From: Procambarus clarkii
Lineage: Eukaryota; Arthropoda; Malacostraca; Decapoda; Cambaridae
Length of the DNA: 64,000 nucleotides
Assembly: GCF_040958095.1 (NCBI RefSeq)
Contig: NC_091181.1
Span: 30,436,529 to 30,500,528, forward strand
Direction of reading: 5' to 3'
Notes under the pieces: generated by a model
What the model saw: only the letters and a program-made list of their open reading frames with translations
Database searches by the model: none
What the model was told of the DNA's origin: nothing
Translations under genes and position numbers: made by a program
Shown: in pieces, positions 17,347-62,324 of the stretch
How positions within the stretch are numbered: position 1 is the first letter of the stretch
Layout: every line of letters begins with the position of its first letter

Positions 17347-18099
17347 GCAGTTTACATACTGATGATGTTCGAACATTAAGTGAATGGTGCTTCACTGACA
17401 ACCTCTAAATACAAATAATTGCCTAGAGAACCTAAACCCTATAACTTAACCCATGCCTAACTATACAGAGAACTTAATATATAAATACCAGTATAGCCTA
17501 ATGAGACCTTGACAAGCCTATATAAGAACATATCCAATGAAACTCATTCATTTCAGCGAACGAGTGAAACTTCAAGCTAAGACATAAACTTTTTTTTATT
17601 AAATTATAGTGTAAAAAATGTTTCACTTGTAACCAAAGGTTGCCATATAAATAGGTACTGGGTAAATATTTTTTCAGTGTACTCTTTTGTGAATGAACAT
17701 TTTACAAGGAGTACTTTAAAGGGGGGTAATCAGAGTGCAACACTACACACTCGCCCCTCGTCTGAGCTCTCTACCCCCGTCCTCGACTTAAGTCCTCGTC
17801 TCATACTCTACGACACTTCTCTACATTACCAAGAAACCCACTACTGTATCCAAGACTATACTAAATAAATATAAAAAAAGATGTGTCTAATTAACCAAAT
17901 ACGTACATGTAAAAATACATTACAGACTCGATTACGAATTAACACTTATTAATCGTAATTTATGAGATAAATCATTATTAGTGAATAATGCCCATGAAAG
18001 TGAGCAAGGATAATGACCTGAGTAGTTAATAAGAGGTCTAATACCCAAAGGCACCTAAAGCCTCTGTAACCCTTTCCTCTACCACCTACAGGATGGGTA

Positions 18100-18245
18100 T
18101 CGGGTGCCGTAAATGCCGTATCAGCTGAACTTTAAATCCAGCTTGAAAAAATCATCAGGACAAATGGAGGGACCTTTGACAAGCCGCTGGCTTCCTGTCC
18201 TTGTCGAAGCCACTAATGCTAGTGACCTTGAGGCAAGTTCGTGGT
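18100..18245 (+). mobile_element. CR1-like LINE terminal fragment
   Basis: CTTTAAATCCAGCTTGAAAA, then GGACAAATGGAGGGACCTTT and GGCTTCCTGTCCTTGTCGAA match the last 150 bp of the LINE at 16,040-16,860. The paralogous fragment in unit 2 is at 37,300-37,415, so the insertion predates the duplication. Confidence 0.75.
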
Positions 18246-18679
18246 GCCTTCTTTTAATAATTACTTATTTCAGATAAATTAAAAAAAAATAATAGCTAAA
18301 CTTAAAAACTAACCTTTGAGGTAAAATATAAGTAAAAAATGTATTTTAATTACATAATAATACAATCAAACATTTAATTTAAATTGGTATATCAATGAGA
18401 TGATGTAATTTGTATGAATTTGCCTGAAATAATGAATGTTGTGCTTACGGATATTATTAGGAAGTTTGATTTTCCCGCTCACGACGTCATGGACTACGAG
18501 CGCTTATATTCTGAGGTTGTCTATGTAGACAGTGAGTGCATGGCTAAGCATAATTACAAAAAATAAAACAAATAAAAAAAAATAAAAAACAGTATTGATG
18601 CAGCAAAACAACATTTAACACCAAATTTATTAGAAAATCCATTGAATTTTCTGGTCGCTAAATGTCGACGAACTTTATA

Positions 18680-18815
18680 ATAATAATAATAATAATCTTT
18701 ATTTAGGTAAGGTACATACATAAAGAGATTTACAAAGTTTGTTGGCTTTATAGATAGAGCTAGTACATACAATGCCTAAAGCCACTATTACGCAAAGCGT
18801 TTCGGGCAGCACAAT
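18680..18815 (-). repeat. Dispersed repeat 3' end with (ATT)n tail
   Basis: Read on the minus strand: CGAAACGCTTTGCGTAATAG, TGGCTTTAGGCATTGTATGT, then ACCTTACCTAAATAAAG and an (ATT)n tail. This is a retroposon 3' end with a polyadenylation-like AATAAA and a trinucleotide tail. A related copy is at 39,170-39,320. It is probably the 3' end of a decapod LINE or its SINE partner. Confidence 0.6.
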
Positions 18816-18994
18816 GACTTTCTGATGTAGACTTTCTGATGTAGACTACCTTGTAGTGGTAATGACTTTCAAATGTAGAAACAACAATGTTATCAATTAT
18901 CAAGGTATCAGTAACTTCACTTGTGCTACATGAGTGGCGGTTCTGATATAATAGAGTATTGTATGTTGTTATCGTCTCTTAGGTCCACGGGACC

Positions 18995-19100
18995 ACTTTA
19001 TCTAGAGCAGCGCCCGCTGTACACCTTCACTCACCCTGCTGAGGTGGTCCTGTAGAGAACCGTTACTATACGCTGCTAAGGTGGTCCTGTATATTCTCTC
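18995..19100. repeat. Minisatellite, about two units (unexpanded)
   Basis: About two copies of the CTGCTAAGGTGGTCCTGTA motif at the position where unit 2 has a large array (37,590-38,400). It shows that the array amplified mainly in unit 2, or contracted here. Confidence 0.8.
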
Positions 19101-19334
19101 GCAACTTGATGGTAAATTTATCCATGGTTTATTTTATATCTCAGAGTAAAGCAGAAAAACTGACCACAATTGGAACTGCGGTCAGTTGTGCAAGAATGGT
19201 AACCTTATTGAAGTTGATTGGTAATTATATTTAATTTAAATTATTAGGTAAGCTTAGTAATTATAATTATAATAAAACAAAGTATATAAATTATTAATGA
19301 AGCTTAATTTAGATTTTTTGTAAGCTTAAAACAG

Positions 19335-19790
19335 GTAATGACTTTATTTATATATACAGGAAAGTACATTGGGTTTGACAAAACTTAAGTTACATTATCT
19401 AAAAAGGCGAAGAATTAGGGGTGACAAAAAACAGGTGATTTTCTAGGTCTGTTCTATGTTTAGTGTTAGTTAGTTGATTGACATCTATGAGTGGACATTT
19501 TTAAATTCATTATTGACAATATTATTTAGTACGTGGGGGTTGGGGGTCAGAATGTATGAAGGTAGTATCGTCAGCAAATAGTATAGGTTTAAGAATGATA
19601 GAAACATTTGGCAAATCATTGATGTATTTAAGAAATAGAAGAGGCCCCAAGATGCTACCCTTTGGCACCCAACCCTACTGTCAATAGTTGAGTGGGGGAG
19701 GTTATACTATTGATGGCTACATATTGGTGTCACTGAGATAGGAACGAATACAGTCCAGAGCAAACCATAGTGGTGAAGTTTAAAGTAAGA
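19335..19790 (-). mobile_element. Jockey-type LINE, RT fragment and 3' end
   Basis: The minus-strand translation reads [20 protein letters not shown], then [14 protein letters not shown], which are RT motifs B to C of Jockey-type elements with the FADD catalytic box. Downstream, the fragment ends in CCAATGTACTTTCCTGTATA then TATAAATAAAG, a typical 3' end. The 3' end is shared with unit 2 (38,550) but the RT part is not found there. Broken. Confidence 0.8.
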
Positions 19791-19930
19791 GGTATAGTTA
19801 TGATTTACATTATCGTTTTTATTAATTAATAGTATATATTACGCGTTTACCTCTAGTAATTATTATATACAAGTATAAATATCACATAATAAATGTAATA
19901 GGAGTTTACTCCCAAACTGGCCACAGTGAA

Positions 19931-20022
19931 GTGTTTTGTACGTTCGATCATGTTTGTGGTAGTGTTTTGTGCGTTCGATCATGTTTGTGGTAGTGTTTTG
20001 TGCGTTCGATCATGTTTGTGGT
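19931..20022. repeat. 31-bp tandem repeat, three copies
   Basis: Three near-identical copies of GTGTTTTGTGCGTTCGATCA plus TGTTTGTGGTA. Unit 2 has a single copy near 39,655, so this is a unit 1 expansion. It lies just upstream of the DIRS element. Confidence 0.9.
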
Positions 20023-20239
20023 CACTGGGACGTGTAATGTTTACGCTGATGGGCGGCGTTCTTACTAAGCCCGGATTATGTCCATCACATCACTAAATCT
20101 CAATTAATAATTAACTGTTAATAGCATTATATTGTGGTTTTAATATTGAATAATTATATATATACGAAACCTTCAAAATTCTGTGTCCGAAATGATAAAA
20201 ATATGTGTGATCCGTACTCTGGAGTAAGAGTGTAGTATC

Positions 20240-23200
20240 CATTCAAGTCCTGTTGAGTTGCTGGCGGAGTGGTGGTCTCTCAGTCACCTCTGGCCTCACA
20301 TTCCTGTTCTGGATATTGCCTTGTGTGGCTGTGCCAGCTGTGTGTGTTGTGTGGTGGGCAGGTGTTCTTGTACTTAGAGCTACATGCGCCTAGGGCATCT
20401 TTCCCTAGGTTCCCTAAGTCCACCCTTGAGTGTCAGGGCTGTCTTCCCTGGACGTTCGGGACTCACTCTCCGTTTGAGGGCTTCGTCGCTTGACATTGTC
20501 ATCGCCGTTGGGGTGAGTCGGGGGTCTGGGGCTTTCCGTCGTGCCCCGAGTCAGGGGAGTGTTCTTGGCTGAAGGAGAAGGGCACACTGAGGCTGGCATA
20601 ATCTGCTTACTACCTGTGCGACGGACGATGTTACTCTCCTGCTGCTAGTTTGCTTGTCGTGTGGTTTCGAGGCTTGCTCTTTTTTTTTTTTAAAGGCGTT
20701 TTCCCAATGTGGACGGAGGAGGTCTGCTTAGCTGCTTATTAGGCTCGCCTTGATTGTGGTGGCTCTCCTAATCCGTTGCTCCCGAGGTTTCACCTCTGCT
20801 ACTAATAGTTTGCCTGCTTCCAAGCAGGGGGTCTACTGGCTTGGCTGGTCCCAGTGCCTGGGCATCCTGTAAGGCTGACATACCCTGCGGACCCTGGAAA
20901 ACTCCCGTGAGCTAGGTTGGTAACATGGATCCGCCCGAGCCCACTCTCGCCTTGTGCGAATGTGAAGGTTGTTTGTCGCCCCTGCCTCAGGGAGACAATC
21001 ATCCTTTCTGCCTCCACCATGCAGCCTGTTGGGTCGGTGACACCTACGACCCGGAGTCTTGCGAGACTTGTTCCCCGCTTGTGTTTCAGTTAACCCATTC
21101 CTCATCTGCAAATGATAGGATTCAGGCTGCGGCAGCATTGCATGCTCACTTCTCTCTCATGCAACGTGCCAGGTTGGTTGCCCGGTTGAAGGCCCCAGAG
21201 CTGCCCCGTTTGGGGTTTAGGGACCGGGATTTGGGGCCATTGCTCGCTTCAATCTTGGTTCCATCCATGCCCCTGCTTCCTTCCCAGATGGGCGTGGTTC
21301 GCTCTCTTCCTCTTCCGGCTCCCAAACGCCTGAGGGTTTCAATGTCAGGGCAGTGTTTAGATCGAGATGAGACTCGTGTGACTTCGGGGGCTGCCCCTTC
21401 AGATTCGGGCGCGGAAGTGGCTGAGCCCGCTCTTCCTGCTAAGGCTTCCAGTTCATCCCAGCCACCTAACGTATCGAAAGCCTTTCCCTTGGACTCTACC
21501 TTTTCTTCAGGGGTGGTGGGCGCGGAAGAGGACTCTGCCTTAAGGCCTGTGTTGGGGGTTCCCCGGGCTCGGGGGGAATCTGCTTGGAGTGCTTGGGCTC
21601 CTTTTGACCCTGCTTGGGCCCTTGTGCCTTCTGGGCAGGGATTGTTGCTGCAGGGGAAGGGTTTTTCGTATCCTCCTTCCCTGTATGAATTTGAGTTGGA
21701 TGCGGCTCCACCCCGAGTTCGTTTCCGGGTGCCTTTGGGTTCCTTGAATTCGTCTTTCCAGAGGTTTCCTCCTTGTCGGATTTCCCCTGGGAAGGTTCGG
21801 AAGGCCCTTGGTGCGTACCTCCTGCGAGACCCAGTTTACGCCTCTGTGATGGATCCATCTTCTTTTGAGTTTGGTTCTTCTTTCCCATATTGGGTGCGTT
21901 ATGAAGTTCCGGAGTCTTCCTTGCTGGCAGACTGCCCTCTTTTCTCTCTCAAAGCTTGGCGTGGCTTTTGTCGTACCCGTAAGCTGAATTCGCAGGAGGT
22001 TTCATCTGAGGTGCAGGTGTTCTTGGGGGGCTCGCTCGAGTTCCTCAATGAGTGCCTCTTTGCTCCTATGCTTCCTCGTGATGTGGGTCTGGTGCAGTTG
22101 CATGCTCAAGTTCCAACTCTTTCAGTTGCTTTGGCGGCTGAGGACCTCCGGACTCGCAGTCATTTGGCTTCGGTCCTGCGTTTTTTTGGTCTTCTGGAGC
22201 TTCACTCAAAATTTCTTTCTGAGGATGTAGGGGCGTTGAGTGAGGGGCCTTCGACTGGGGTTCTGGTGTCGGCTGCTCGGGCATCATCTGCCTTGCTTAA
22301 GCTGTTTGCACCGATCCTCCGGGAGGCGGTTTCAACGTTCTTCTCCTCTCGCCTCGCATGTCGGCAGGCTGTGCTGGCTCTGTCTCCGAATTCGGCTTGG
22401 GCCCTGGCTCTGCAGTCGTCTTCGCCATTCTGTCCTCTGTTGTTCCCGGAGGATGTTGTGGCTCAGTTTCTTTCGGTGATTTCGACTAGTTGCCGTCCTG
22501 TTTCGGACTTGTTTGTGGTACGGGGGAGCCGTTCTCGTTCATCTCGATTTGGTCGTACCAGGGCTCGGGTCTCGGTTGGTCGAGGTAGACCTTTGGTGCC
22601 AGTGGTTACGTCAGTGGGCTTTCCTGAACCTTCGTCATCTGGTTGGCGCGGTGTTCGGTCTGTGCGCCGAAAGGCTTCTCGGCGTTTGCATCGGCCCTTT
22701 CGCAGGTCGCCCCGTTAACGGGGCATTGGGGGGAGGCTGGCTCTTTTTTGCCTGTGCTTGGTCATGTGATTTGTGGGCTTTTTGGGTCGTTTCTTCCAAA
22801 CTCTGGTGGCGTTGGGTGGATCATCCCGCCATGGGAGGGTTGGGCTTGAGGGGGCAGCCTTCTTCCCTGTCCCTCAGTCGGGTCATCTTGGAGTGGCTTC
22901 GCTTGGGCGTGGTCAAAACAACTTCATCTCTCAAGTGGGTTTTCTGTTTGTTTCCAGATCTGAAATGGGACTGTGCGGATCTCCGGTACATTCTGGACTT
23001 TCCTGAACCGGTTGATTCCTTGCCCTTCTTTTTGGATGATCACACAATCCCAGGTCCAGCTCGTTCTCGAGCCAGGCACTTGGATGGTTTCCCTGAATCT
23101 CTGGGATGCTTATTGGTACATCCCTATTCATCCGGGATTCAGGGATTAGTTGGGGTTCCAGGTGGGGCGACAGGCTTACCGCTATCTTACCTGCTTTTCG

Positions 23201-25470
23201 GCTTGCATCCTGCAACTCGCATTTTTACGTGTCTCACTCGGATGGTAGTAGCCCATATGTGTCTGCTAGGTCTTCGGGTGTTGGCCTACCTTGACTATTG
23301 GTTGGTGTGGGCTCCCAGCCAGTCTGCTTGTCTGCTAGCCAGGGATCTGGTTCTTTAAGCACCTTAAGAAGCACCTCAAGGTTTACCAGCTTGCTGGGCT
23401 CGGGTTCCTGGTTAATTGGCAGAAGTCCCAATTGGTTCTGTCCCAGGTTCTGACTTGGCTGGGCCTCGTATGAGATTCTCGGACATTGTCCATCTCTCTC
23501 CCTTCTGTGGCTCTGCTCTGGTTGCAGTCTGGCTTCAGTTGTTTTTGAGGGAGACCCAGGTCACTCAGGAGTTGCTCGAGCGGCTGTGCCGGTACTGTAT
23601 CTTCGGAGTCGCCACTTTTGCCGCACTTGCGATTGTTTGGTTTGCACCCTGGGGTCCTTGTGTAGGTTGCTGCATCACCAGCTTCCACTTTGGGTTTTTC
23701 GGGGTTCGGTCACTAGTTCGGGCAGGGGCGCTGGGGTAGTCCTTCGGCCAGGCTTACAGCACGGTGCGGGTGTTTGTGGTGGTGTGCTGGATTCAGCTTC
23801 CTTGGGGCTCTTTGATCTGGCTCCATTCGGACTGATCATTGTCTCAACCGTGAGGGGATCATTTTGGTTCATGGCTCTTTGGAGCCAGTCGCTTCAGGTA
23901 GCTCTTCTGCTGAGTTCTCGGGGTTTAGCTCTCCATGTTGTTTACAGTCAAGGCGTGTCCAACATTCTGGCAGAGATGGCCTGGCCCGTTTCGTTCCTCT
24001 TTCCACAGAGTGAACAGTCGACACCGCATCCTTCCTTTGCCTTTGTTGGATGTATGGGAAGCCGAAGGTGGACCCATTGAACATGGTGCCATTCCCTGAC
24101 TGCAAGTGTGTTGCTCCTGGTCCTGGCTCGCTTAAAATCCTATCAGGGGAGAGTTCTTCTCCTGGCTCCATGGTGTCTGGCCCAGCCTTGGTTTCAAGTG
24201 CTGCTTGCTCGGTGTCCGAACCCGAGCATCTTTACATGGCTCTGCCTCTACCAGCAAATCAGTTCAGTGAGGCACCTTGCTGGTACGCGTTACTGTTCCG
24301 TACTTCGTGTCTGGTCTTTCTGATGCGGGTGTATTGCTATTTCTATGGTCTTCAGGTGGCTTCTTTGATGGTATTCCACCTATGGTTGTCTTGGTGACAG
24401 CATGAAGTCTCTTGGCGGTCTTTCCATTATTTTCATTCTTTTCGAGGGTTTTCATCAATTTCGAACTAGGTTGTTTTGTTCTTTCTTTCATGCCTGGTTG
24501 AGGACTGGGTCGCGGGAACGTTGAATTTCGCTTCTATCGTGCGATGTTGGCGGAGCCGCTCTAGCTTGCATTCAGGGTGGATGTTACTTCTGCCCCTTTC
24601 TGCAAGAGTTCATGTGCGTTTTTACACCTCTGGCCTGCTCGTGGGCCACCTGAGCCTTCCTGGTCTTTGGACCGGGTTCTTTCTTTACTTCTCGTTTTGT
24701 GGCGGCCCCCTTTGGTTGGCGATTGTTTTTGGAAGGCCACAAACATTTTTGTGGCCTTCCAGAAAAGAAGTTGGCCTTTTTTTTTTTTTTTTTTTTGTAC
24801 TTGGAATCTTAGGCTCCAGTTGAGGAGCTTCAGGCTCTCCTCCGGTGCTGAGGGTTCTGTTCTTTTGGTCCGGGTGGTCATTTTGTTTGGCTGCAGGCTT
24901 CTCCTTCTTTTCTGGCAAAGAATGAGACAGCAGGGCATAACATGTTGTGTCTGGTGGCGGCTTTACGCCGCTACCTGCAGGCCACTGGTTCGGTGACAGT
25001 GGACAATCTTTGGGTGGATCCAGTTTCCCCGGGCTCATGTCTCAGGTTGTCCGCAGTGTCAAAAGTTCCAGCCAGCCTGTGGTCTACCCTCGTGTCAGTG
25101 AAATATGGAAGTATGCGGCGCTTGCCACGGTTTTTGGGAACATGTCTTGGGTTGACGTTCTTGGCGTGGGGGTTTTGGAGGTTGAATAGGGTCCTGGCTG
25201 CCAGATATCTAGTGAATGTTCCGGGCCCTTTCCGGCTTGATGCTGCAGCTGTCGGTCTCTTCTTTGACTTGAGCCCTTCTGTGTTGCTGCTTCTCTGGTA
25301 AGTCTCCGTTTTCTTTATCTTTTGGTAGTTAGCTTCAGGGAGCCGACTGGGCTACCCCAGAAAACTAATGTTGAATGTAATGGTGTTATTTTCTGGGCGA
25401 AGCCACAGAGGCTTCCTGACATTCCCTGTCGGTCAGTGTTTTTTGTTTTTTTACATAATGCCTAGAACTG
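20240..25470 (+). mobile_element. DIRS-type (tyrosine recombinase) retroelement, broken
   Basis: A fossil of a DIRS1-like element, ends approximate. Parts in order: a 5' non-coding leader; a gag-like region with a cysteine/histidine-rich start; a DIRS-type reverse transcriptase and RNase H region; a tyrosine-recombinase region; and a non-coding terminal block containing an imperfect palindrome built on AGGGAGCC and CCCAGAAA. The base composition (GC-rich, T-rich coding strand) stands out from the flanks. It lies at the same position as the unit 2 element, so one insertion was copied by the duplication. This copy is clearly broken, with about five or more breaks. DIRS elements of this kind are widespread in Decapoda. 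Confidence 0.85.
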
Positions 25471-25474
25471 ACGT

Positions 25475-25560
25475 GGTGAGCTTGAGTATGCCACTGCTTT
25501 TTAAGCTTGAGGATGCCACTCTTTTGTAAGCTCGAGGATGCCACTGCTTGGTAAGCTTTT
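25475..25560. repeat. 25-bp minisatellite, three copies
   Basis: Three copies of a GCTTGAGGATGCCACTGCTT plus TGTAA unit directly after the DIRS element. Unit 2 carries about ten copies at 45,356-45,610. Confidence 0.9.
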
Positions 25561-25839
25561 ATATATAATTGCACTGCATTCCTAAATCTGCAAACAGCAG
25601 AATGTTATTCAAGAAGCAGTGAGCATTAAGAATTGTACAGTATATTAATGAACAACACAAAGTAGCATGGTATGCTGGCATGCTCTGGTGACAGTTAATT
25701 TGTTTTCGATTTAGTGAAACTTTGTTTTGGTGGCCTAATACCAGAGCACTGTTTTGTATGGCACCGATGTTTGGCCATACAGTATAGTGTTTTAATCATG
25801 ACCCACATTTCAATGTAATTGTTTAAGTGTAATTAACTA

Positions 25840-26790
25840 AGTGTAGTTACAGGATGAGAGCTACGCTCGTGGTGTCCCGTCTTCCTAGTGCTCTGTCATA
25901 TAACGCTTTGAAACTACTGTACTGACAGTTTTGGCCTCCTCCACCTTCTCACTTAGCTTGTTCCAACTGTCTACCACTTTGTTTGCAAAAAAAACTTATT
26001 AATATTTTTTCAACATTTTTGTTTCCTTAACTTATCTTCTAGTTTTGGCATGTTTAACGCCTCTAGTCTCTCCTCGTAACTCATGTTTCTCGGTTCCGGA
26101 AGCCATTTTGTAGCATGCCATTGCATTTTTTCCAGGTTCCTTATGTTTTTGAGATATGAGCACCATACAACTGTTGCATATTCAAATTTTGGTCTCACAA
26201 AAGTCACGAACAGTTTCTTTAGCATTTCCCCATCCGTATACAGTAATTAAAAGCAAGTCTGACGTTGGAAAGCAACGCATACGCTCCTCTTACAATGTTC
26301 TAAAAGCGTTCCTCTGGCAACAGCTTACTATCCAAAATCACTCCTAGGTCTCGTTCCTTATTAGAGTTCTGTAATTTCTTTTCACATAATTTGTAAGTTG
26401 TGTGTGGTCTATTTTCTCTGAATCCACATTCCATAACTTGGCATTTATTCACATTGAATTCCATTTACCACTTCACGCTCCAAGCTCTTATTTTATGTAG
26501 ATCAATTTGAAGGGCATTACAATCATCTGTGTCTCCTATCTTCCCCAGTATCTTAGCATCATCCGCAAACATGTTCATATAATTCTGTGTTCATTCTGGT
26601 AAATCTTTTATGTAGACAGTGAATATTACTGGTGCAAGAACTGAACCCCTGTTGTACTCTGCTAATAACACTTTTCCAGTCAGATACATTGTCTCTGATT
26701 ACTGCCCTCATATCTATGGCAGAAATTTTTTCATCCATGTCAGAAGGGAAGGGTACTGTCAGGGGAAAGTGCCAAGCCATTAAACTACAA
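25840..26790 (-). mobile_element. CR1-like LINE remnant, RT palm and thumb
   Basis: On the minus strand the translation shows VIRDNVSDWKSVISRVQQGF near 26,660-26,720, an NMFADDAKILGKIGDTDDC-type catalytic block near 26,525-26,580, then MLKKLFVTFVRPKFEYATVV and YEERLEALNMPKLEDKLRK (26,010-26,225). These are RT motifs and the thumb region of a CR1-like LINE. Stops occur. It is shared with unit 2 (45,870-46,990) and so predates the duplication. It is the same family as 62,800-64,000. Confidence 0.85.
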
Positions 26791-26794
26791 CTGG

Positions 26795-27150
26795 GGGCCT
26801 CGACTTACGAATTTAATCCATTCCCAGAGATGGGTTATAAGTCGAAACAAATTTTCCCAAATAATGTAAATTGAATTAATCCATTCCACAGCCCCAAAAA
26901 TATTAACTTAAAAATACATTTTATACTGAATAACACTACAATACAGTATGTATAGCTTACTTTGAATGAGGACTCTTGTTGGCATCTGGAAGAAGGTGAG
27001 GAGGAGGGGAGGAGAAAAGGTGTTAGTGTTTGGAAGGGGAGTCCCCTTCCATTATAACATCAGGCAGTGATGACTTTTCTGGGATACTCTCTTTCCTACA
27101 TTTTGGCTGCATACCACTAGGACCTGCTTGTGGCTCACTGCTTGTTTTTC
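26795..27150 (+). mobile_element. Tigger-like DNA transposon fragment
   Basis: The left end CTGGGGGCCTCGACTTACGA, followed by AATTTAATCCATTCCCAGAG and a second GTCGAA motif, resembles the terminal region of Tigger-like elements (a GTCGA/TCGAC-bearing TIR and a repeated TTAATCC motif). Unit 2 has unrelated LINE sequence at this position, so the insertion or an accompanying deletion is unit-specific. The right end is not recognised. Confidence 0.5.
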
Positions 27151-28574
27151 TCACCAAAAACTTGTCTTAAGGACTGCACATCCACGTGAAAGTCAAAACA
27201 GAACAAAATAAATCAAATATTTGTTTTATCCAACAAATAATGCAAGTGCTATTTTTTTTTTTTTATTTTTTAGGCATGTGACTGAGTACTGGTGACCAGT
27301 CGAGTATCGTCAAAATATCTGTAGGCATTATTTATAGTAATGGTTACAAGCCAGACCTTATTCTTTGTTATATTTAAAGATGAATAATGATAAGTCATGT
27401 GTCCTAGTCTGTGTATAAAATGTCGATATTGATACAATGTGTAAATAGATAACAAAAGAGGCGTTTGTGATGCTCGGGGATTAGATAACATATACTGTAT
27501 ATAGTACAACCGTTGTTAGGATACACCGCCTACCTAATCATTTTATCTCTGAAGTGGTCAGATATCCTACTCATCAAAACCAGATATTGAATCAGTGAAT
27601 CTAAACAAAATTCAGCATTTAACTTTTCAGTTTCGAACATTGGACAAAAAGAGCATTCCATACAGATCAAGAACATTTATTCCTGTCATTTCTAGTCAAG
27701 TGCCCAATGATGAATTATAGACACCTAATAGGAAATAACTAGCATGAGGGGCTTTTACAGTGAAGTGCTTTATCTTTTCTAGGAGATGCCTCCAGCATTG
27801 TTAAGGCAATGTTCTAGTAGGTTTGCTTGTAGTTGTTTGGATAAGTTGATCATGGTGATGAGCCTGCAAAAAATGTCCTACCTGAATCCTTCAGTGAACT
27901 TGGGATCATGAATCTCGGTGAAATATCCGGTGTTTTGGTAGGATCTCTCCCACTAGTTCACTAGTTGCACTTCATAGGGTTAGAAATGCAGGCAGTGCAA
28001 TCTATCTGCATTACCTTACTGATCCCTACATCACCACATCTAACTGGGAGCATTGGTTGGTCCCATTGGACATTTTTCAGGGGGAAGGTTTGACACTTTC
28101 AGGAGTTTGCCATACTTTCTCAAATTTTTTGCTGTCAAAGTGTGTGCACTTAAAGAAATAGATAAACCTGCGCATGGCTGTACATCTAATTGTGAAGAGA
28201 TACAAAGCTTTGTGAATGCTCATAACACTTGTTCGTTCTTCCATCCTCCTCAGGTCGCTTAGTTTTTCTTTAACTCGACACATTCTGTTAATGGAAGTTT
28301 GCACTGGGTTAAAACAAAAAAATTATATACTGTACTATAGTAAAATTAGTGCAAAAGAAAGAATAAATGTTTTAAATAATTCTGCTAACCTTGTATCCAT
28401 TATCTTATCTTTTTCAGGAACATTTCTGAGCTGAAATAATGTACTGAACAAACTAAGCAAGAATCTATGTAACAACAGGAAGAAAAGTTATTCTGATTCA
28501 TTAAAACTGAAAATATTTGCATTGTATATCTTTTAGTACAATAATACTCTACACACTTCATTACGAGATACAGT
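27151..28574. other. Upstream region of CTBS, no gene seen
   Basis: The 1.4 kb before the CTBS start is shared with unit 2 (47,100-48,507). A minus-strand ORF (28,077-28,304) has a diverged twin at 47,966-48,232, but the two differ in length and frame and show no domain. Their resemblance follows from the duplication. A CTBS promoter should lie here, but no core element is convincing. An untranslated first exon cannot be excluded. Confidence 0.4.
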
Positions 28575-49900: not shown

Positions 49901-50118
49901 TACCTCATTCCTTCTAACAGCTGATGATTCAGGGACCAAACTCTAAGTCTCCTGTTCCATCTGAGCTACTTGTAGTAATAATAATAATAATACATTAATT
50001 TTTTTACACATGTACATACATGTGATACATGAACAGAGGAAGATGCATAAATAAGACAATTACAATGCATAATGCCAACAACATGCAGTACATTTCAGGT
50101 ATAACTTAAGATAATATA

Positions 50119-52559: not shown

Positions 52560-52815
52560 TATTATTACTGTATTATTATTATTATTATTATCATCACCAT
52601 CATCATCAAAAAGAGGCATTTCCTTACATTCAATGATAATTTTTTATACAGTATGTGAAACCAACTACTGCGTAACATAATAGAAGTAGGATCCGTTGAT
52701 TGTTTCAAGCGTAGGTTAGACATATACAAGAATGAGTTTGGGTGGATATAAATAGGAGCTGCCTCGTGTGGGCCAAAAGGCCTCACACAGTTTCCTTGAT
52801 TCCTATGTTCTAGGT
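52560..52815 (+). mobile_element. LINE 3' tail in CTBS pseudogene intron 3 (paralogue of 31,830-32,095)
   Basis: Same order as the unit 1 copy: a (TTA)n/(CAT)n tract, a degraded C-terminal coding tail and GGATATAAATAGGAGCTGCC. A TACAGTA heptamer at 52,647 is missing from the unit 1 copy. Confidence 0.65.
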
Positions 52816-53638
52816 GGTTCAGCACTTTTGTCATTTCTGGTGATTTGGATATTTTAGTCTTAAAATTATAGTGATTATATTTTTAAGACTTGCTCATCGG
52901 TAGCTGAGCATTTTGCTTTATTGAATAGATTAATTCTCCAGGAACAATTTATCACAGAATACTGTACATACATTTTTATATTTTTAAAGTTCTCAGAATT
53001 GCAGGTATCATTTGATGTTGCATGGTCTGCAAATGGGATTGATGGAAGATATTATGACTACAAATCAATTGCAAACTACAGTGATCATATTTTCATCATG
53101 GCATATGATGAGCAAAGTCAAATATTTGATGGCCCGTGTACTGCTAGGTAAATATGATGCTGATTGGATTTATAAACTTATACTGTATATCATATTTTGA
53201 CACCAGTTTAAATACACCTCATCTACATCAACCAACCATTCATAACTAAACATTAGAGGGTATTGTATCATTATATCATTATGTATCGTACACATGGATG
53301 CCAAACCCATCGATAGTTTCAAAGGGTCATATGACAGAGCACTGGGAAGACAGGACACCACAGGTGTAACTCTCATCCTATAAATACACTTATGCATTTT
53401 CCGAAGTGTAATTACTTATCTTATTGAATCGCCTTCACTAGCATGTAAACTGTTTGTGTAGATGCTAATTTTAAAATAGCACACTTTGTGGGAAGAGTTT
53501 TCCCAAGGGATGTTTACAAGGTATTGTCAACACTTGGCTCCAGCAACAAGCAGCCACGCCACCACTCAGGACTCCGGCAGTGACAGTGTAACGGTGAGTG
53601 AAGTGGCTACTGTGGCTCAGAGAGAGGGTCATAATAAT

Positions 53639-54076
53639 ATGGTCAAGGAAGTGTGGGCTGAACTTAAAAAAGTTGGCGAGTTCCTCCAAAATCTGGGGCA
53701 GAGAATCGAGTCCATCGAGGCTAAATTAAACGTTCAGGAGGTCAAGGAAAATCACAAAACGGTGGAGGATAGTCAGGATATAGTGGTTGAGGACAAAAAT
53801 GAAATATTGAGTGATGAAATGAAGGAAAGTGAAGTGTGTGTGAATGATGGTAGTCGTAGTGAAAGGAAGAACCCTATAATTACACATAAAATGAAGGAAT
53901 CATTTGGGCCAATAATGGACATCTCAGGGCTGAAAAAATCTCTTGAGAATCGCAATGTCGCTTTTACTGGTGAACTTGGGAGGAGGTGGGAGATGTTATA
54001 CAAGGTATGGCTATCATTTAGTGAACTTATTGGGGATGACTTAGGCAATGAATTGATTAATAATGGATCACCCTAG
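53639..54076 (+). CDS. LINE ORF1 (coiled coil), probably 5'-truncated
   Basis: 145 residues from the first in-frame ATG. The frame is already open from the element's 5' edge at 53,537, so the natural start may be missing. The segment EVWAELKKVGEFLQNLGQRI to about residue 40 has heptad spacing typical of the coiled coil by which LINE ORF1 proteins multimerise. The rest is acidic and lysine-rich. No CCHC knuckle or RRM is visible, unlike many I-group ORF1 proteins. It ends in AATGGATCACCCTAG, where the ORF2 start ATG lies within its last 14 bases. ORF1 proteins bind the element's RNA; here that role is inferred from position and coiled coil only. Confidence 0.7.
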   Translation: MVKEVWAELKKVGEFLQNLGQRIESIEAKLNVQEVKENHKTVEDSQDIVVEDKNEILSDEMKESEVCVNDGSRSERKNPIITHKMKESFGPIMDISGLKKSLENRNVAFTGELGRRWEMLYKVWLSFSELIGDDLGNELINNGSP

Positions 54077-57000
54077 ACTGAAAGTGTTGTCATGGAATGT
54101 TAATGGTTTGAGAAACAGGGTTACAGATGTTCATTGTTATGTGATGGGAAATGATATTGATGTTGTAGCTCTCCAAGAGACAGGGGATAGGAATGAAGGA
54201 TTATTGAAATTAAATGGTTATAAAGGGTTTCACCTCTTCGCTGCAAATAACATCAGAGGCACGTCGATTTATGTTAAGAACTCCATACCAGCAGAGTTAG
54301 TAGAACCACCATCAAAAACGCAAGGTATAGAGAGTGTCTGTGTTAAATTATCATTAAGGGAAGGGGAATTTATTGTAGTTAATTTGTATGTATCCAGGAA
54401 CTGCTTCGACGCTAACTATTTACCTGACTGCATTTATACTAATCCTTCACTGGTCATTGGGGACCTTAATGCTCGGCACACAAGCCTTGGGACAGTGGGT
54501 AGTATTAATACTAATGGGGTCAAGTGGTTACAGTTTCTACAAGATCATCCAGATACCTGTCTATTGGGAAACAGTGAACCAACTCACATCAGGGGAGGAC
54601 GGCTTGACTATGCCTGCGTTTTAAACTCTCAGGGGATTATGGGGGAGGCTCGGGTTGTTCGGGAACTACTTAGTGACCACTTTGCCTTGAACGTTGAATT
54701 ACCACTGGGGAAAAAACAAGTCCACTTTCAAAGGAAAAGGCTAAATATTAAGAAAGATATGAAAAATTATTTTATTCAAAATATGGGAGATTGGTATCAA
54801 CATTACACGCCGCTCTGCGTTGATAGTTTTTACGAGGACATGGTCGAGAACATAGAGAAATTAGTACAGAGGGAAAATAACGGGGGCAGGGGAAGCAAGA
54901 CGCACGGACCTAAGAAATTTAAATATTCCAATGATCAGCAAGTCAAGGGATGGGAGAGAATGCTACGGGGTGCGCATAAAGCATGGTTAAAAAATGGAAT
55001 GAGGGATGAAGAGAAAAATACAATGTTGGAAGTGGCTAGGGAATGCAGTCAGGTGAGGAAGGAGGCGCGGGACAGATACTGGCAAGACTTTGCTCAGGCC
55101 ATTGGTAATACTAAGAACCTTAAAGACATATGGAGAGCAGTAAATAAAGTCAGGGGTTGTAAGACTAAATTCATTGCTCACTCAGATCCAGGGAAAGTTG
55201 CTAATGAGTTAGTAGATAAATGGGCAAGTGCTGCTGGTATGGAGTCCTTACCTGCAGACACGAGAGTCACCATTGAGTCATGGGAAAATATTAGAAATGG
55301 AGTAACTTTATGTGCCTTAAATACAAGATCTATAGCATGCACTGAGATAACCCACGATGAGCTACTGGATGCTATAAAAAGTGGCAGCTCCACTGCTCCG
55401 GGAAAAGATGGAGTAACGTATGACGTACTTAATTATTTAGCCGGTATGAAACCTAATCCCTTACTTGATTTGTTTAATATGAGTTATAGAGAGGGAAAGT
55501 TACCAAGAAAATGGAAAGAGGCTGTCATCATTCCTATCCCTAAGTCAAACGGAGGCTACAGACCTGTCTCCTTAATATCCTGCTTTTGTAAAATGATGGA
55601 AAGGATTTTGTTAAATAGGCTACTCTACCTTGTAGGTGATAACATGTCCAATAATCTCTTTGGTTTTATCAAAGGCAAAAGTACTGCGGATTGTCTCTTA
55701 AAGTGTTTGTCTAATGTGGATGACAATTGTAGAGTTTTTGTTGATCTACAAGGAGCGTTTGATAAAGCCAATGGGGAAGTAATCTTATACGAATTAGCCA
55801 ATCTGGGAATAACAGGGAGATTGCTACACTGGATAAGGGATTATCTACAAGGCAGAAAAGGTCAGGTGTATTACCAGGGATACATGTCTGAGGAACGGAG
55901 GTTTCAGTTAGGTACCCCACAAGGGGGAGTATTAAGTCCCACCTTATTCAATGTATTAATGAACAGATTAGCATCAGAGATGTATCCTCCAGGGGTCACG
56001 ACGATCATATATGCTGATGACATTCTTATACAAGGCACTTCTGGGAACAAAATTCAAGATGCTCTTAACATACTTGGTACAACCTGTCACAAGTTAGGCT
56101 TAGTTATAAATGCAGATAAAACCAAATACGAGTATAGGAAACGAAGAAATATAACACTTACTCTAAATGGTGTGGAACTGAGCCGTGTACAGAAGTACAA
56201 GTATCTGGGCATGTATGTTGGATACACATGTGAGAGTAAAAATGCTGAAATAAATCATATCAGCACCTTATGTAAAGCCCGTCTGCATCCTCTAAAAGCA
56301 CTGGCTTTTTCTGGTAAAGGTGTTGGGGTACCTATCTTGCGGATGTTATACATAAGCACTGTTCGATCCCTGATAGACTACGCAGCACCCGTATTGTCTT
56401 ACACAGGCCAAGGCAGAATTCAAAAAATAGAGCTGATACAGAACGAGGCTATGAGGATTATTCTTGGATGTCAAAGAAATGCAATGATTGAAATAATGAG
56501 AATGGAATTAAATTTACAGAGTGTGTGTGATAGAGTCCGTGACATTAACACTAGAGTATCTATTCGTTTCATGCGGAGAAAAGGAGGGGATAAGCTGTTT
56601 GAGAGCGTTCAGACCTGCTTGAGTGACGTACACACTTCCAGGAAACTGAGGGAGACACGCTATACGAGAGGATTAGCTCATGACCTCAGGGAATACGACG
56701 TACTTGACTGCTGTAAACCCTCTCGAAAGTGTAATATGTCTGCTCCCTGGAAAGTACAGAAAATAGACGTCGAAATTGTACCCCTCAAGGTGAAAAAGAT
56801 TCATCATGAACCGGGACAATTACGGTGTTTGTATGGAAGCATGATATCTCGGTTACCAAGAGGCAACAGTTTACATGTATATTGCGACGGGTCGGTGGCG
56901 GAGGATGGCAGGGCAGGGTGTGGTGTCCTAATAAGGGATTATACGGAGTTTGGGACTGTGGACAGGATAATTGAACTCCGGCTTAGTAATTATATATCAT

Positions 57001-57722
57001 CCACACAAGCTGAACTGCAGGCCATTCTGGCGTGTTTGGAGGAAGTACGTCATGACGACAAAAATGTTTTTGTATTTGTCGATAGCCGAGGAGCACTGGA
57101 GTCCTTAAACAGTCGAAACCCAGTCTTCATGTCTATAGTGGAGGACTGTAAGAGAAGAATAACTGAGATACAGCTGAAAGGTTATAGTGTGAAATTCATG
57201 TGGATTCCATCTCATGTTGGAATAGTGCTCAACGAGGTGGCGGATGACTTGGCCAAACGTGCCACATCAAAACCACAAGTTGACATTGAATGTGAATTCA
57301 CAATGAGACAAATAAGAAGCAAAATCAGAAATATTCAGGCACAGGCGGGAGTGGAGAGGAGAGAGATAATGTATGAGAGTAGTCAAACCATGCAACACTA
57401 CATGTATGTGAGTCAAAACACCCATTTCACTTATGGTAAAAGGAGAAATGCTTGGAGTGACTCTGTGTACATGCGGCTCAGGCTTGGGTACAAATATTAC
57501 TGGGAATATGGGATAGATGTTCATGGTAATGACACGAAGTGTAAACTATGTGGTATGTTAAGGTCTCACACCCTTGCCCATTATATTCTTGATTGTCCGT
57601 TGATTAGTGTATATAGAAACACTGAGATAAGGACTGTTCCTGAACAAATAGCCTGGATGTGTCACAACGGAAAGGTTGATGATATTCTTGAGAGATATAA
57701 GAATTTTGCACCAAGATTGTAA
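54063..57722 (+). CDS. LINE ORF2: APE endonuclease, reverse transcriptase, RNase H
   Basis: An uninterrupted 1219-codon frame. Residues about 5-215 form an APE-like endonuclease (LSWNVNGLRN, the VVALQET glutamate, IGDLNARH, and the LLSDHFALN Ser-Asp-His). Residues about 430-720 form the reverse transcriptase: APGKDGV, GGYRPVSLIS, FVDLQGAFDKA, LGTPQGGVLSPTLFN and the YADD box at about 650-653. Residues about 938-1070 form RNase H, with Asp in YCDGSVAEDG (about 942), Glu in STQAELQAI, Asp in FVFVDSRGAL, and WIPSHVGIVLNEVADDLAKR. Near residue 1160 lies a zinc-binding C-terminal motif, CKLCG-8-H-x3-H-x4-C. It overlaps ORF1 by 14 bases in the +1 frame, suggesting termination-reinitiation. Target-primed reverse transcription is the family's mechanism. 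All catalytic residues looked for are present, so the copy is recent. Confidence 0.95.
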   Translation: MDHPRLKVLSWNVNGLRNRVTDVHCYVMGNDIDVVALQETGDRNEGLLKLNGYKGFHLFAANNIRGTSIYVKNSIPAELVEPPSKTQGIESVCVKLSLREGEFIVVNLYVSRNCFDANYLPDCIYTNPSLVIGDLNARHTSLGTVGSINTNGVKWLQFLQDHPDTCLLGNSEPTHIRGGRLDYACVLNSQGIMGEARVVRELLSDHFALNVELPLGKKQVHFQRKRLNIKKDMKNYFIQNMGDWYQHYTPLCVDSFYEDMVENIEKLVQRENNGGRGSKTHGPKKFKYSNDQQVKGWERMLRGAHKAWLKNGMRDEEKNTMLEVARECSQVRKEARDRYWQDFAQAIGNTKNLKDIWRAVNKVRGCKTKFIAHSDPGKVANELVDKWASAAGMESLPADTRVTIESWENIRNGVTLCALNTRSIACTEITHDELLDAIKSGSSTAPGKDGVTYDVLNYLAGMKPNPLLDLFNMSYREGKLPRKWKEAVIIPIPKSNGGYRPVSLISCFCKMMERILLNRLLYLVGDNMSNNLFGFIKGKSTADCLLKCLSNVDDNCRVFVDLQGAFDKANGEVILYELANLGITGRLLHWIRDYLQGRKGQVYYQGYMSEERRFQLGTPQGGVLSPTLFNVLMNRLASEMYPPGVTTIIYADDILIQGTSGNKIQDALNILGTTCHKLGLVINADKTKYEYRKRRNITLTLNGVELSRVQKYKYLGMYVGYTCESKNAEINHISTLCKARLHPLKALAFSGKGVGVPILRMLYISTVRSLIDYAAPVLSYTGQGRIQKIELIQNEAMRIILGCQRNAMIEIMRMELNLQSVCDRVRDINTRVSIRFMRRKGGDKLFESVQTCLSDVHTSRKLRETRYTRGLAHDLREYDVLDCCKPSRKCNMSAPWKVQKIDVEIVPLKVKKIHHEPGQLRCLYGSMISRLPRGNSLHVYCDGSVAEDGRAGCGVLIRDYTEFGTVDRIIELRLSNYISSTQAELQAILACLEEVRHDDKNVFVFVDSRGALESLNSRNPVFMSIVEDCKRRITEIQLKGYSVKFMWIPSHVGIVLNEVADDLAKRATSKPQVDIECEFTMRQIRSKIRNIQAQAGVERREIMYESSQTMQHYMYVSQNTHFTYGKRRNAWSDSVYMRLRLGYKYYWEYGIDVHGNDTKCKLCGMLRSHTLAHYILDCPLISVYRNTEIRTVPEQIAWMCHNGKVDDILERYKNFAPRL

Positions 57723-58439
57723 TATTTTGTTGAATTATCTGCAGGTGTCTTGCAAATTGTCTATACAGTATACCTAGGTCATAAAAGTATTTGTGTGTAC
57801 GTCTGATACCATACTACTTGTGAAGGAGGAAATGTATATTTTTACCTCTCAGAATGTTTGGTAATATGTTTATTTGTGATGTGTGTATATGTATATATTA
57901 ACACGTTGTACTGAACGGGGTGAGAATAGCTTGAGCTACCTCATCCCTTTGTGTGTATTTTACCTCAATAAACTTATTTCAATTTCAATTTTCAATTTTC
58001 AATTTCAACACTTGTTAAAGTGTTGGCAGGAGGAAATTTTAAGCTGAAATGCAGCTCAGTTGTTCCTGAATTTAATATGTTGCTAAGAAGTTTTCCCATG
58101 AGTTTCTAAAGTATTGGAATAATTTGTTTATACAGTACTGTATATCAGTTCATTTGTAAATGTTTCATTTGTGTATATCAACTTGATCTTAAATAATTCT
58201 GTTCTGAATGTTTGTGTAAATATTACTTAACTGCAAAATACAGTGTAGTAGCCTTAATTTTAAGGGTGAGAGTATGATATGTATTATTAATTGTTCATCT
58301 TGATTTGGTTTCCTGTTGTTGGGGACAGGAAGCATATATTGTACTTAAGCCTATTAAGGTCCACCTAGGCCATATATTGATTTTCCCCAGAATGCACTTC
58401 ACAAAAATTTTCTAACTTCTGGGATCCAATTTTAGTACT

Positions 58440-58625
58440 AAGTGAACAAAGGCATCAGGGAAGAGAAAATGTCACCAACTGGTTTAGTTGACTCAGGTGC
58501 ATCTGGGAACATCCCGTGCATAGGTTCGAACCCTCATCACGGCCCTTGTGGATTTGTTCATTGTCCCCTGTCTGCCTCTGTCCTACAGCAGATATCGAAC
58601 CCAGAACCCTCGGTTATGAGTTGAT
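58440..58625 (-). repeat. SINE fragment with inserted second repeat
   Basis: This is the unit 2 counterpart of 33,255-33,365, enlarged by about 90 bp (GGTTTAGTTGACTCAGGTGC through CCCTGTCTGCCT) that carries a forward GGTTCGAACCCTCATC box B. The insert is missing from unit 1. It is either a second small SINE insertion or a longer ancestral SINE reduced in unit 1. Confidence 0.5.
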
Positions 58626-59993
58626 GTAGACCACTCGGCTTTTATATAACATAAACAGTCTATTCTGAGAGAAGACCAAGTTATGTCAGATTTACATTGA
58701 TATTAATATGTACAATCAACTTTGTGTTCAGAGCAATAAAGTGGGAGGAGATTGGGTTGGAGACCAGTCATCTCTATTTCCTTCCCACAGAGGTCAAGTG
58801 CCTCCTAAGCCCTTTCAAAAGAGAGAGAGAGAGAGAGAGAACCAGATGCTGGTCCTAGCTACTGGTAGGCAAGGAAGGGAAGTTGAGGGAGGGGGTCTCG
58901 GAGGACTAATGCATCTCCCCCCAAGACATGGTTGGGCCAGAACTTACCTTAGGAAGCTACTGAGAGCCCCATCAGAAAAGGACATTTCAGTACATACATT
59001 CAATTCTTGATTTTAGCAGGTCATCTTTAGCCATTTCACTCAAATTCTTACCCAGAAGAAACATAGGCCTACTTTTTATTTTTTTGCAACTTGTAATAAG
59101 AGCTCGCTAAAAAATGTATTTAACTGCTTTGAGGATTATTAGCACTATTAGGATCAACAGTTTGTTGGTCTTGAGTTTCATGATGGCCTCAGTAACCATT
59201 GTCTAGTGCGTGTCTTACATGTATAGACTAATGTTAGTATTTTATAAATTTGATTTTAATATTTATATTGTCTTAGACCAAACTCTGGCATCTACAAGAC
59301 AGCCCAAGGCACACAGACATACTACTTGAATCTTGACATTCCTGCAGAGAAGATGGTCTTAGAAGTACCTTGGTATGGTTACAACTATCCTTGCATTTCA
59401 TTAGACTAGGTAAGAGACTTACTTTTATCTAATGCTCCATTGTGAAAAATTAGCTTTTTATTTTAGTATTTTTCATTTTTTTGCATTTGTCAGTCAATAA
59501 CGACATGGTATTCATTATGATGTTTTCTAACATGCATGTCACAGTCTCGGTTCTGTCATTTTTCTATTGAATTTTAACAGTAGGAATTTAATTTTGTGCA
59601 TGCTAGTTTAAAAAAAATGACTGTAATTAGACTATACATTATATTTTATGTTCTACAATTTTGTGTCTTTTCTTTTCGGTTTCTTTATTTCATTAAAAAT
59701 AAATTTATGATTGTTTTACATACAGTGTTTGTTATTAGCAATTAATTTTTTTCAGAATGACACTTGCTTCATTGAAGAAATCCCATCTCGAGGAGCTAAC
59801 TGCAGCGATGCAGCTGGAACCCAGTATCCATATAGCTACATGGTTGCAACTCTTGAGGAATTCAATGCAACTTATCATTGGGAAGAAAGCTCATTGACCC
59901 CATGGTATAACATCAAGGTAGGCACAGAGCATTTTGTGAAGACTGGTCAGCAGCTTATTCACTTTCATTCACTTAAATTTTTACATACTGTAT

Positions 59994-60180
59994 TGCTCAA
60001 TTACTTGGGCTGAACGGTAGAGCGACGGTCTCGCTTCATGCAGGTTGGCGTTCAATCCCCAACCATCCAAGTGGTTGAGCATCATTCCTTTGCCCGGTCC
60101 TATCGCAAATCCTTATCCTGATCCCTTCCCAGTGCTATATAGTCATAATGGCTTGGGGTTTTCCCCTGATAGTTCCCTTC
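59994..60180 (+). repeat. tRNA-derived SINE with 11-bp target duplication, unit 2 only
   Basis: The head reads GGGCTGAACGGTAGAGCGAC (box A) and TTGGCGTTCAATCCCCAACC (box B); the 3' block is TGCTATATAGTCATAATGGC. The flanks repeat ACATACTGTAT (59,983-59,993 and 60,181-60,191). Unit 1 lacks it near 34,705. Same family as 50,119-50,309 and the nested fragment at 12,331. Confidence 0.92.
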
Positions 60181-60419
60181 ACATACTGTATGCTTAAATT
60201 TCCCAATACTTTCTCATTCCCAATCAGTTTACAGCCATAGTTTTTTTCCTCAATTACTTTCTCATCCCTCCAAGTTCTTCTCTCAGTCTTGCAACACCAC
60301 ACACCAGCTTAACATTATCTCTATATTAGTACTTCCCACATAACATCAAGATTTATATACAAAAATCTACGTATGGTATAAATTTATCAATTCTTCTTTC
60401 TGTGAACTGCCATCCTTAA

Positions 60420-61863
60420 CTCTTATACTGTGCAGTATATAAATCCTTATATACGACAGAACTCGATGGCACCATAAGTTAAATTTCTCAAACTTGCTCT
60501 CATGCTTTCCAATTTTTTGTGCATAATCTACTTGGCAAACACTCAAACTTTTTCTAAATGATCACCAACGTAACTTGAAAAACAAGAATATAAAAAAATA
60601 TTTATAAAATTTAATACTGAAAATTTCAGATTTTCAGATCAGCTGCAAAAATATTAAATATCGCCAATTGTTCATTAAGTGTTATTATGCTCTCAGAATA
60701 GTATATGATCTTCATTTTAATAGATTTAGAATATAGATTTTCAGTTTAGTTTACTGTAAAAAAAATTGTCATGTGGCATTTGAAATATGCACCAAATTCA
60801 GACAACAAAATTTATAACTCAAAATGTTTAGGGTTTATAAAAAATCCATTCTAATAGGATTGTAGAACAGACAGCTGCGCACACTATATGTAAAAATGGT
60901 TAGAATAAAGTCAGAAATTTGATTTTTTGAAGCTGTCTCAAAGTTGAAACTCTAGTTTTAGAGATAATTGAAGTTGTAGTTGTCGACAAAGTTTTAATAA
61001 ACGTTGTTTGGCATTCGTACTCGAATCTGTGAAAGTTGTAGGTCAAAATGTGTTGGAATGAAGTCAAGAAAAAATACCCCTCCCACCCCCCAAAAAATAG
61101 GGATAATTATAATTATTTGGGGGGATAAAGATGTATGCCTCATACAAGTGAAAAAGTCCTAATCTAGTCCCTAATCATTGAGACAACCTAAAGAGATGAA
61201 TAAAATTATTAGAAATTTGTGAAAAAATCACAAAAAAAAATCAAAGTCCCAAGTTCTGCCAGTTATGATTTATTTGTTCACCAATTTAATCTATCTTCAC
61301 ATACTTACGGACGGGTATGCACTCTCCAGGATGTAGAGGTTACAACAAAATCAGATAATAAACAAACAAAAAAATAAAAAAAAATCTCCCTAAAAAAAAT
61401 TTGTGGACATTGGTGAAAGTAGCAGATATTACAATTGGACAATGTATTTGTATGATATATAACAAAATAGAGCATAATAACATACTTACTCATTATTATT
61501 GGTGTTATTATGTATTACTCAGCAATGCTATAAAGGCACCAGCTGCATATTCACTTTGTGGACACTTATAACTACTATTCTTCTTCTTTGTGCATTGGAC
61601 AGGTGCTTGCATCTCTATTACTGCATTATTCCTCAGTTCCAGTTAATAGGAGCTGTTCACATTATCAACAAAACATTCTTTGTTTTTTTAAAAAATTGTC
61701 TAAAATCCATTTCTGAAAATATTGGGATGAAACTTTCATGACACTGAAGCCAATAAGTTGGAGATTTGTTTAACGTTTTAATGTTACTTTTCACATCAAA
61801 TTTTTTTTTGCCCAGCCCTAGCTTATACCCCCATTTACAGCCCAAGCTGTAGCAGTGTAAGGA
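60420..61863. mobile_element. Possible piggyBac-like non-autonomous element
   Basis: A 1,444-bp block found only in unit 2 is bracketed by TTAA (60,416-60,419 and 61,864-61,867), the piggyBac target. The ends are weakly inverted: CTCTTATACTG at the left and TCCTTACACTG in reverse complement at the right. The interior is very AT-rich with no credible transposase. Unit 1 at this place (near 34,940) is short but not a perfect empty site, so some rearrangement accompanied it. It lies in intron 6 of the CTBS pseudogene. Confidence 0.5.
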
Positions 61864-62324
61864 TTAAGTGAGGGTGATATTTCACTACTATTTTCTAGGA
61901 TAAGAATGGTCAAGCACGTCAGATGCGATATGATGATGGACAAAGTCTCCTCTACAAGTACATGCTGGCCATAATGACTGGGATGCGTGGTGTAGGCATG
62001 TGGACTGCCAACTTTCTGGATTATTCTGAAACAGATGAAGCCATTGCTCAACAAGAGTTGATGTGGAGCTTATTACTATAAATAGTTAAAGGCTTTAAAG
62101 TTTGTTTTCTAACATTTTTATGACAAATTCCTTCTGGAAATTATACTTCCTGAAATTTATGGTCTCATGTGTCACTCCTGGCATCTCAAATGATTATGGT
62201 GAAACAGATCATTCAGAAAAATGATTAATACTGTATCTATTAACTTTGATTATCATTTTAAAATGAAGACCAGTGTGGTATTTTTCAGTACTTGCTGGTA
62301 GTCACATGCTGTATGACATTCATG

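Follow-up and report, generated by a model that had tools for sequence, protein, structure and literature searches.

We report that two tandem duplication units in a 64,000-nucleotide stretch of the crayfish Procambarus clarkii genome (contig NC_091181.1, positions 30,436,529 to 30,500,528 of the forward strand; the whole stretch is referred to as the window) differ repeatedly by exact five base pair (bp) changes at TA dinucleotides, such that TA in one unit corresponds to TACAGTA or TACTGTA (jointly TACWGTA) in the other. These differences are probably excision scars of cut-and-paste transposons, with Tigger-type elements of the pogo superfamily as the likeliest source. In a dispersed repeat the direction of change is that of insertion, in the +5 form, with both mirror products and with repeated hits at one TA; moreover, scars and resident elements have a target preference in common, and one element has duplicated its TA.

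Staggered ends and mismatch repair at excision are known from Sleeping Beauty. In the mechanism that we propose, an element with CAG...CTG ends would insert at TA and duplicate that TA, and at its departure the transposase would leave the element's last three bases behind as staggered overhangs; host end-joining would then close the gap and repair the mismatch at the central base in either direction, so that TA becomes TACAGTA or TACTGTA. By analogy we infer that cutting would take place three bases inside the ends, with end-joining chemistry of the same kind, and the mechanism predicts that the Tigger-type transposases described below make three-base staggered cuts. The source would be at least two families in the genome that end in CAG, are flanked by TA and carry DDE_1 open reading frames; these, and not relatives that have died out or escaped detection, would have left any particular scar. 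The process would have been active both before and after the units were duplicated, returning to favoured R-TA-Y (purine-TA-pyrimidine) sites, earlier scars included. Excision is normally invisible after an element has departed, and a fixed, countable 5-bp mark would reveal the frequency and location of excision and the repair of breaks by the host over evolutionary time.

Five-bp differences between the duplication units

The genome around the window comprises 4.03 Gb in 2,308 contigs; below, C-numbers denote contigs, L-numbers other genomic loci, and w26 and w46 the window copies of a repeat in units 1 and 2, respectively. As delimited by BLAST and global alignment, unit 1 extends over 17471..35389 and unit 2 over 36300..62301 (both on the + strand), the latter having the same order as unit 1, broken up by insertions. 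The units share 14 homologous blocks with 15,133 aligned columns, 9.8% mismatch and 215 indels, 20 of which are 5 bp long. Nine of these 20 are exact changes between TA and TACAGTA or TACTGTA, and these CAG/CTG indels are the only ones of the form TA-NNN-TA, a form taken by 200 of the 31,675 possible 5-bp deletions from the unit sequences (0.63%; binomial P = 2.5e-15 for nine in 20). A preliminary description of this DNA had claimed about twelve such sites and proposed a base-by-base alignment of the units as a check; in that alignment the footprint form is strongly over-represented among 5-bp indels, and every one of the 12 coordinates given as gained carries TACAGTA or TACTGTA. Nine of the sites are exact, two are probable with a further change, and one, at 37,065 (compared with 17,900), could not be confirmed, as the alignment there is not clean.

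Seven of the strict sites were gained in unit 2 and two in unit 1, with both CAG and CTG represented; gains in both units and in both orientations had been claimed in the preliminary description (all sites are given on the + strand). Unit 2 gains are TACAGTA at 36527..36533 (empty TA near 17,680) and 37515..37521 (empty near 18,388), and TACTGTA at 47753..47759 (near 27,830), 48799..48805 (near 28,862), 49652..49658 (near 29,207) and 52960..52966 (near 32,271); the seventh, at 46,300, lies in a nested footprint and is treated below. In unit 1 the gains are TACAGTA at 29795..29801 (near 50,410) and TACTGTA at 30521..30527 (near 51,171). The two probable footprints are at 52647..52653, a 5-bp difference where the empty allele is without the TA, and in unit 1 at 33165..33171, with a net difference of 7 bp, which we take to combine +5 with an AT step of 2 bp.

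Altogether the aligned blocks contain 52 rows with TACWGTA, of which 27 are common to both units, including a pair at the edge of a block (34,708/60,184), and 25 are unshared; apart from the nine strict sites, the unshared motifs are due to substitutions or fall within indels that are larger or complex. The 27 common motifs indicate that the footprint process also predates the unit duplication.

Abundance and distribution of the motif

The window contains 93 copies of TACAGTA/TACTGTA compared with 10.2 expected from dinucleotides, which is the highest ratio of all 7,694 ranked heptamers, and among TA-NNN-TA words with more than three expected copies CAG is 9.1-fold over expectation and the runner-up 1.9-fold. 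Genome-wide, in the heptamer count that the preliminary description had also proposed, the motif occurs 1,038,508 times against 525,540 for the reversed heptamer, i.e. about twice as often, and the two strand products are near equal (523,518 and 514,990). In 20 sampled loci, picked at round coordinates and not at random (two contain 5,000 N and one 500 N), the observed to expected ratio is 1.9 (65 vs 34.5; rank 549 of 8,169) and the distribution is patchy. For one of these loci, L012, nine of its 12 motifs occur at 49-bp spacing: positions 8395-8787 hold nine TACWGTA at exactly this distance, apparently a tandem array with one motif per unit. On contig C1, the region 124076-2933414 has TACAGTA about 40 times more rarely than the window (0.036 vs 1.45 per kb).

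Direction of change in dispersed repeats

The direction of change was read from a dispersed repeat with its unit 1 copy at 26033..26745 (+) and other window copies at 46,089-46,812 and 63,119-63,817. A first look gave 7,102 candidate relatives, the best 40 of which were scored; these 40 matches (38 from elsewhere and two the window's own) together with the third window copy make up an aligned set of 41 copies. Its consensus is without TACWGTA, and insertions of +5 or +10 that form the motif, or a sequence one base away from it, are found at three repeat sites, 209, 545 and 652. At site 209, w26 has TACAGTA (26239..26245, +), which is common to both units and absent from the repeat consensus and the third copy; w46 has the nested footprint TACAGTACTGTA (46295..46306, +), the second 5 bp of which is present in unit 2 only and constitutes the strict gain at 46,300. 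L062 and L075 have TACTGTA at the same site and L039 has TACGGTA, and the copies thus form a series of 0, +5 and +10. The insertion at site 545 is found in L058, and the +10 at site 652, in L056, looks like a nested scar in which bases have changed since.

In a star-like tree of the 41 copies the three sets of site-209 carriers, w26/w46, L062/L075 and L039, are not grouped with one another; w26 and w46 join with a support of 0.98, L062 and L075 with 1.0, and L039 joins L065, which has no insertion, with 0.87. Most simply, the TA at site 209 was hit three times, giving both products, and once again in w46. In a second repeat family a private TACTGTA is present in L093, a copy chosen for its outlying length. 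Hence, while the preliminary description gave no evidence on polarity, the 41-copy repeat supplies it, and the change is a gain rather than a loss, including at the strict site 46,300. Among the copies, the 5-bp insertion of L070 at site 685 was rejected as a scar, since a 4-bp allele is common and the insertion is a variant of it; one motif in L057 has arisen without a 5-bp insertion.

CAG-ended elements and their transposases

Searching the genome with the DDE_1 (pogo/Tigger) profile gave 3,461 candidates; the best 150 were scored and all 150 were matches, many of them having identical scores and open frames 600-700 amino acids long. We identified two families of CAG-ended, TA-flanked Tigger-type elements, CAGTGGAACC (the first family) and CAGAGCACC (the second). 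At L038 there is a complete element of approximately 2.38 kb, consisting of TA, CAGTGGAACCTCTATTAACGAG, a 609-amino acid frame with the domains HTH_Tnp_Tc5 and DDE_1, the inverted end, and TA. The second family begins CAGAGCACCACTTGG; both of its ends are present in L030, and L036 has a 682-amino acid frame with CENP-B_N, HTH_Tnp_Tc5 and DDE_1, the left end of the L036 element not being found. Both transposases match the CENP-B DNA-binding domain (chain 1hlv_A), and their catalytic spacing, counted by eye with the catalytic residues assumed, is DD36D in L038 and DD32D in L036. The range described for Tigger is DD29-36D, and the pogoR and Lemi ranges also take in both values (PMC7386202). The name "Tigger-type" is therefore provisional, as the spacing would also fit pogoR/Lemi.

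TA flanks together with CAG termini at both ends were seen in L038, L024, eight further elements and L030, and exact ends, counted with a non-G base required at -10, number 2,315 and 1,233 genome-wide for the first and second family, respectively. The window itself has one member of the CAGTGGAACC family, decayed and flanked by TA, at 12159..13190 (+), with inverted ends matching at 17 of 20 positions (left TA-CAGTGGAACCTC, right decayed ...GAGGTTCCTTTG-TA). Ends resembling TACAGTGGAACCTC with at most two mismatches number six in the window and the 20 sampled loci, namely both ends of the one window element, both ends in L024, and one each in L020 and L027. A search of the window for TACAG...CTGTA pairs with inverted ends gave six weak matches (12-14 of 16), and at the edges of six large gaps between the units, inspected by eye, no CAG-ended element was seen at a site whose counterpart in the other unit is empty. 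The earlier statement that almost no elements were left behind fits the window and not the genome.

The same excision mechanism could also have been driven by a Tc1/mariner family of the Sleeping Beauty type that is now extinct, decayed or was missed, and this source, which the preliminary description had proposed, appears unlikely to us. Sleeping Beauty is documented to leave consensus footprints that are exactly TACAGTA and TACTGTA (PMC4378557), with CAG as its characteristic footprint (PMC8151067), and the scars far outnumber the present Tigger-type ends. However, Tc1/mariner transposases gave few matches in 4.03 Gb, i.e. one for Pfam DDE_3 at E<=0.001 (best 150 of 337 candidates scored) and three for Transposase_1 at E<=10 (all 37 candidates scored), whereas CAG-ended Tigger-type elements are numerous and have the flank preference of the scars. 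The DDE_3 match and one of the Transposase_1 (mariner) matches speak for such a family; the latter is above the Pfam cut-off in a 367-amino acid open frame (C64:8725704-8725922, L033).

Target sites of scars and elements

Flanks were taken as distinct 10-mers from 100 matches in each family, giving 84 for the first (of 2,315 ends) and 80 for the second (of 1,233), and 186 scar flanks came from all 93 window motifs, with sites shared between the units counted twice and chance motifs included. A purine precedes TA in 73 of 84 first-family flanks (87%) and 153 of 186 scar flanks (82%), compared with 52% of all window TAs. The base frequencies at -1 in element ends and scar flanks are A 0.56/0.51, G 0.31/0.32, C 0.06/0.07 and T 0.07/0.11, and both sets are richer in A/T at -2 and -7. 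When the profile is built only from scars, it ranks first-family flanks over window TAs with an area under the curve (AUC) of 0.79 (P 5e-20), and second-family flanks with an AUC of 0.70 (P 1.4e-10). As the background consists of window TAs and the element flanks come from C1-C5, part of the difference between flanks may be due to local composition.

Duplication of TA was seen for an element at C2:33,103,481. This element fills a repeat of which the window has an empty-site copy at 18694..18809 (-), the filled site reading GCATAA-TA-element-TA-GTGGC and the empty one GCGTAATAGTGGC, and the single TA in the empty copies implies that the element duplicated it. For element e3, its TA in nine empty repeat copies (L025, L027, the window copy and six more) is plain throughout, without a footprint, and the scar in L093 is at a different TA from that of e3.

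Evidence for and against excision

Taken together, the direction of change, both mirror products, the target preference and repeated hits at one TA give good support to the earlier reading of the motifs as excision footprints of TA-specific, CAG-ended elements, while its Sleeping-Beauty-like Tc1/mariner source is not favoured. Several observations weigh against scars of Tigger-type origin, among them the Transposase_1 match in L033. The scar profile is a poorer fit for the second family, which has C 0.14 at -1 and G 0.29 at -2, and TA-specific families in general may prefer R-TA-Y. Ends directly after TACAG, i.e. inside an older motif, were found for four of 84 first-family and two of 80 second-family flanks, and four of 84 ends in TACWG|TA is not a significant excess over 186 of 9,941 window TAs (P = 0.075). 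One filled/empty set was found, and no locus with an element in one copy and a footprint in another. The motif excess, approximately 0.5 million over the reversed heptamer (a rough control), is more than 100 times the number of listed element ends; 16 of the 20 sampled loci hold 0-2 motifs and show no excess; and over 300,000 places in mouse carry the motif (PMC4378557), which implies that many of the copies here are due to chance. The polarity evidence covers the repeat copies and not the other eight of the nine strict sites. Finally, the footprints that the active pogo-superfamily transposon Passer leaves in HeLa cells are reported to measure 0-4 bp (PMC9976928).

Some scars might instead derive from abortive transposase action, such as cutting and resealing or the return of an element to the same TA, which is compatible with excision by Tigger-type elements and has in our view a small probability. 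One TA was hit in three lineages among 41 copies, nested scars are common, and scars far outnumber present ends. Repeated hits are, however, also predicted by the R-TA-Y preference, as G-TA and TA-C are both present in a scar.

That the motifs originate from TACTG/TACAG units by replication slippage or tandem duplication is highly improbable. Slippage yields nested motifs in direct order. Genome-wide, we count 17,287 cases of the direct order (TACAGTACAGTA, on both strands) and 11,465 and 7,124 of the two mirror orders, 18,589 in sum; direct and mirror nesting are about equally frequent, which is expected if orientation is independent and not under slippage. An explanation of the heptamer by slippage of TACTG units was part of what the preliminary description would have taken as refuting it, and the order of the nested motifs speaks against such slippage. 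In addition, the first gains are at plain TAs with no adjacent unit to copy. An existing motif can nevertheless be amplified, as the TACTGTACAG array at C1:21.577 Mb and the 49-bp copies in L012 indicate, and one L093 motif results from a single-base insertion. The inequality of the two mirror orders is a further point against scars with independent orientation, which does not predict it; tandem arrays, which inflate nested counts, may be its cause. The array on C1 (21577008-21577614) is a 10-bp tandem repeat of TACTGTACAG, seemingly a nested scar amplified into a satellite.

That the differences are losses, the motif being ancestral and frequently removed by 5-bp deletion or else retained to bind a protein, is hardly credible: 27 of the 52 motif rows are common to both units and many motifs accordingly predate the duplication, but the 41-copy consensus is without the motif and has insertions in separate lineages, and 0.63% of random 5-bp deletions would fit compared with nine of 20 observed.

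On C1, first-family ends lie at a median distance of 19 kb from the nearest nested motif compared with approximately 811 kb after circular shifts (P 6e-4, 24 ends), and second-family ends at 14 kb (P 1.4e-3, 14 ends), as determined to 35.68 Mb among the matches listed, with some near-duplicate positions omitted. This closeness was not counted as evidence for the source, because a shared compartment (e.g. satellite avoidance) would suffice. Element ends and nested scars on C1, among the matches listed, start only beyond 4.2 Mb.

Comparison with known systems

Excision footprints and Tigger elements are already known. A literature search, which is weak with most subscription journals outside its coverage, gave neither natural canonical footprints on such a scale nor a CAG/CTG footprint of Tigger elements. 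The crayfish scars resemble those described for Sleeping Beauty in the presence of TACAGTA/TACTGTA at TA, the net +5 bp and the occurrence of both central bases (PMC4378557, PMC8151067). They differ in that Sleeping Beauty is there an introduced transposon, whereas the crayfish scars are heritable and accumulated in the genome, and Tc1/mariner transposases are few in our searches. TA duplication, short terminal inverted repeats, DDE_1 domains with DD36D/DD32D, and CENP-B-like and Tc5-type DNA-binding domains are features in common with Tigger as described (PMC7386202). As for Passer, the excision footprints are small, but here, unlike in the Passer data, one +5 form is prominent (PMC9976928). 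A comparison of two rice genomes reports that eight of 94 DNA-transposon excisions were perfect and that most had deletions or filler (PMC4423477). Natural excisions were recognised there, as here, by comparing related sequences; unlike in rice, canonical scars are conspicuous in the crayfish, though messy excisions would escape detection.

More tentatively, the genome may be a long-running archive of approximately half a million canonical Tigger-type scars, with present elements lying among them and some of these landing in old scars. If so, excision and not insertion would be the main mark of these elements, the repair of breaks would be unusually uniform, and scars could be used to date transposon activity across the age range of the duplicated sequence.

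Other features of the window and sampled loci

A non-long-terminal-repeat retrotransposon at 53480-57722 (+) has an open frame of 1,221 amino acids (endonuclease, reverse transcriptase and RNase H). It lies in an alignment gap, and is thus apparently present in unit 2 only, and contains none of the 93 window motifs. Another reverse-transcriptase element, DIRS-like by eye, is paired between the units (20916-25500 and 40582-45500, +), with RVT_1 in the 1,229-amino acid frame of the unit 2 copy; its copies are 84-90% identical compared with 87-95% for the rest of the units, despite an expected equal age. A scan of the window with Rfam at gathering scores gave nothing. The word TACATGTA is about 5.8-fold over dinucleotide expectation in the window (18 on both strands vs 3.1 expected), and no corresponding indel was seen between the units. 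TTAGG-type repeats are present in L009, L010 and L015 and, like the many large contigs, would point to an arthropod, perhaps a decapod. At 37589-38395 of the window, 25-bp and 37-bp minisatellites with a common GGTCCTGTAGAG core lie side by side.

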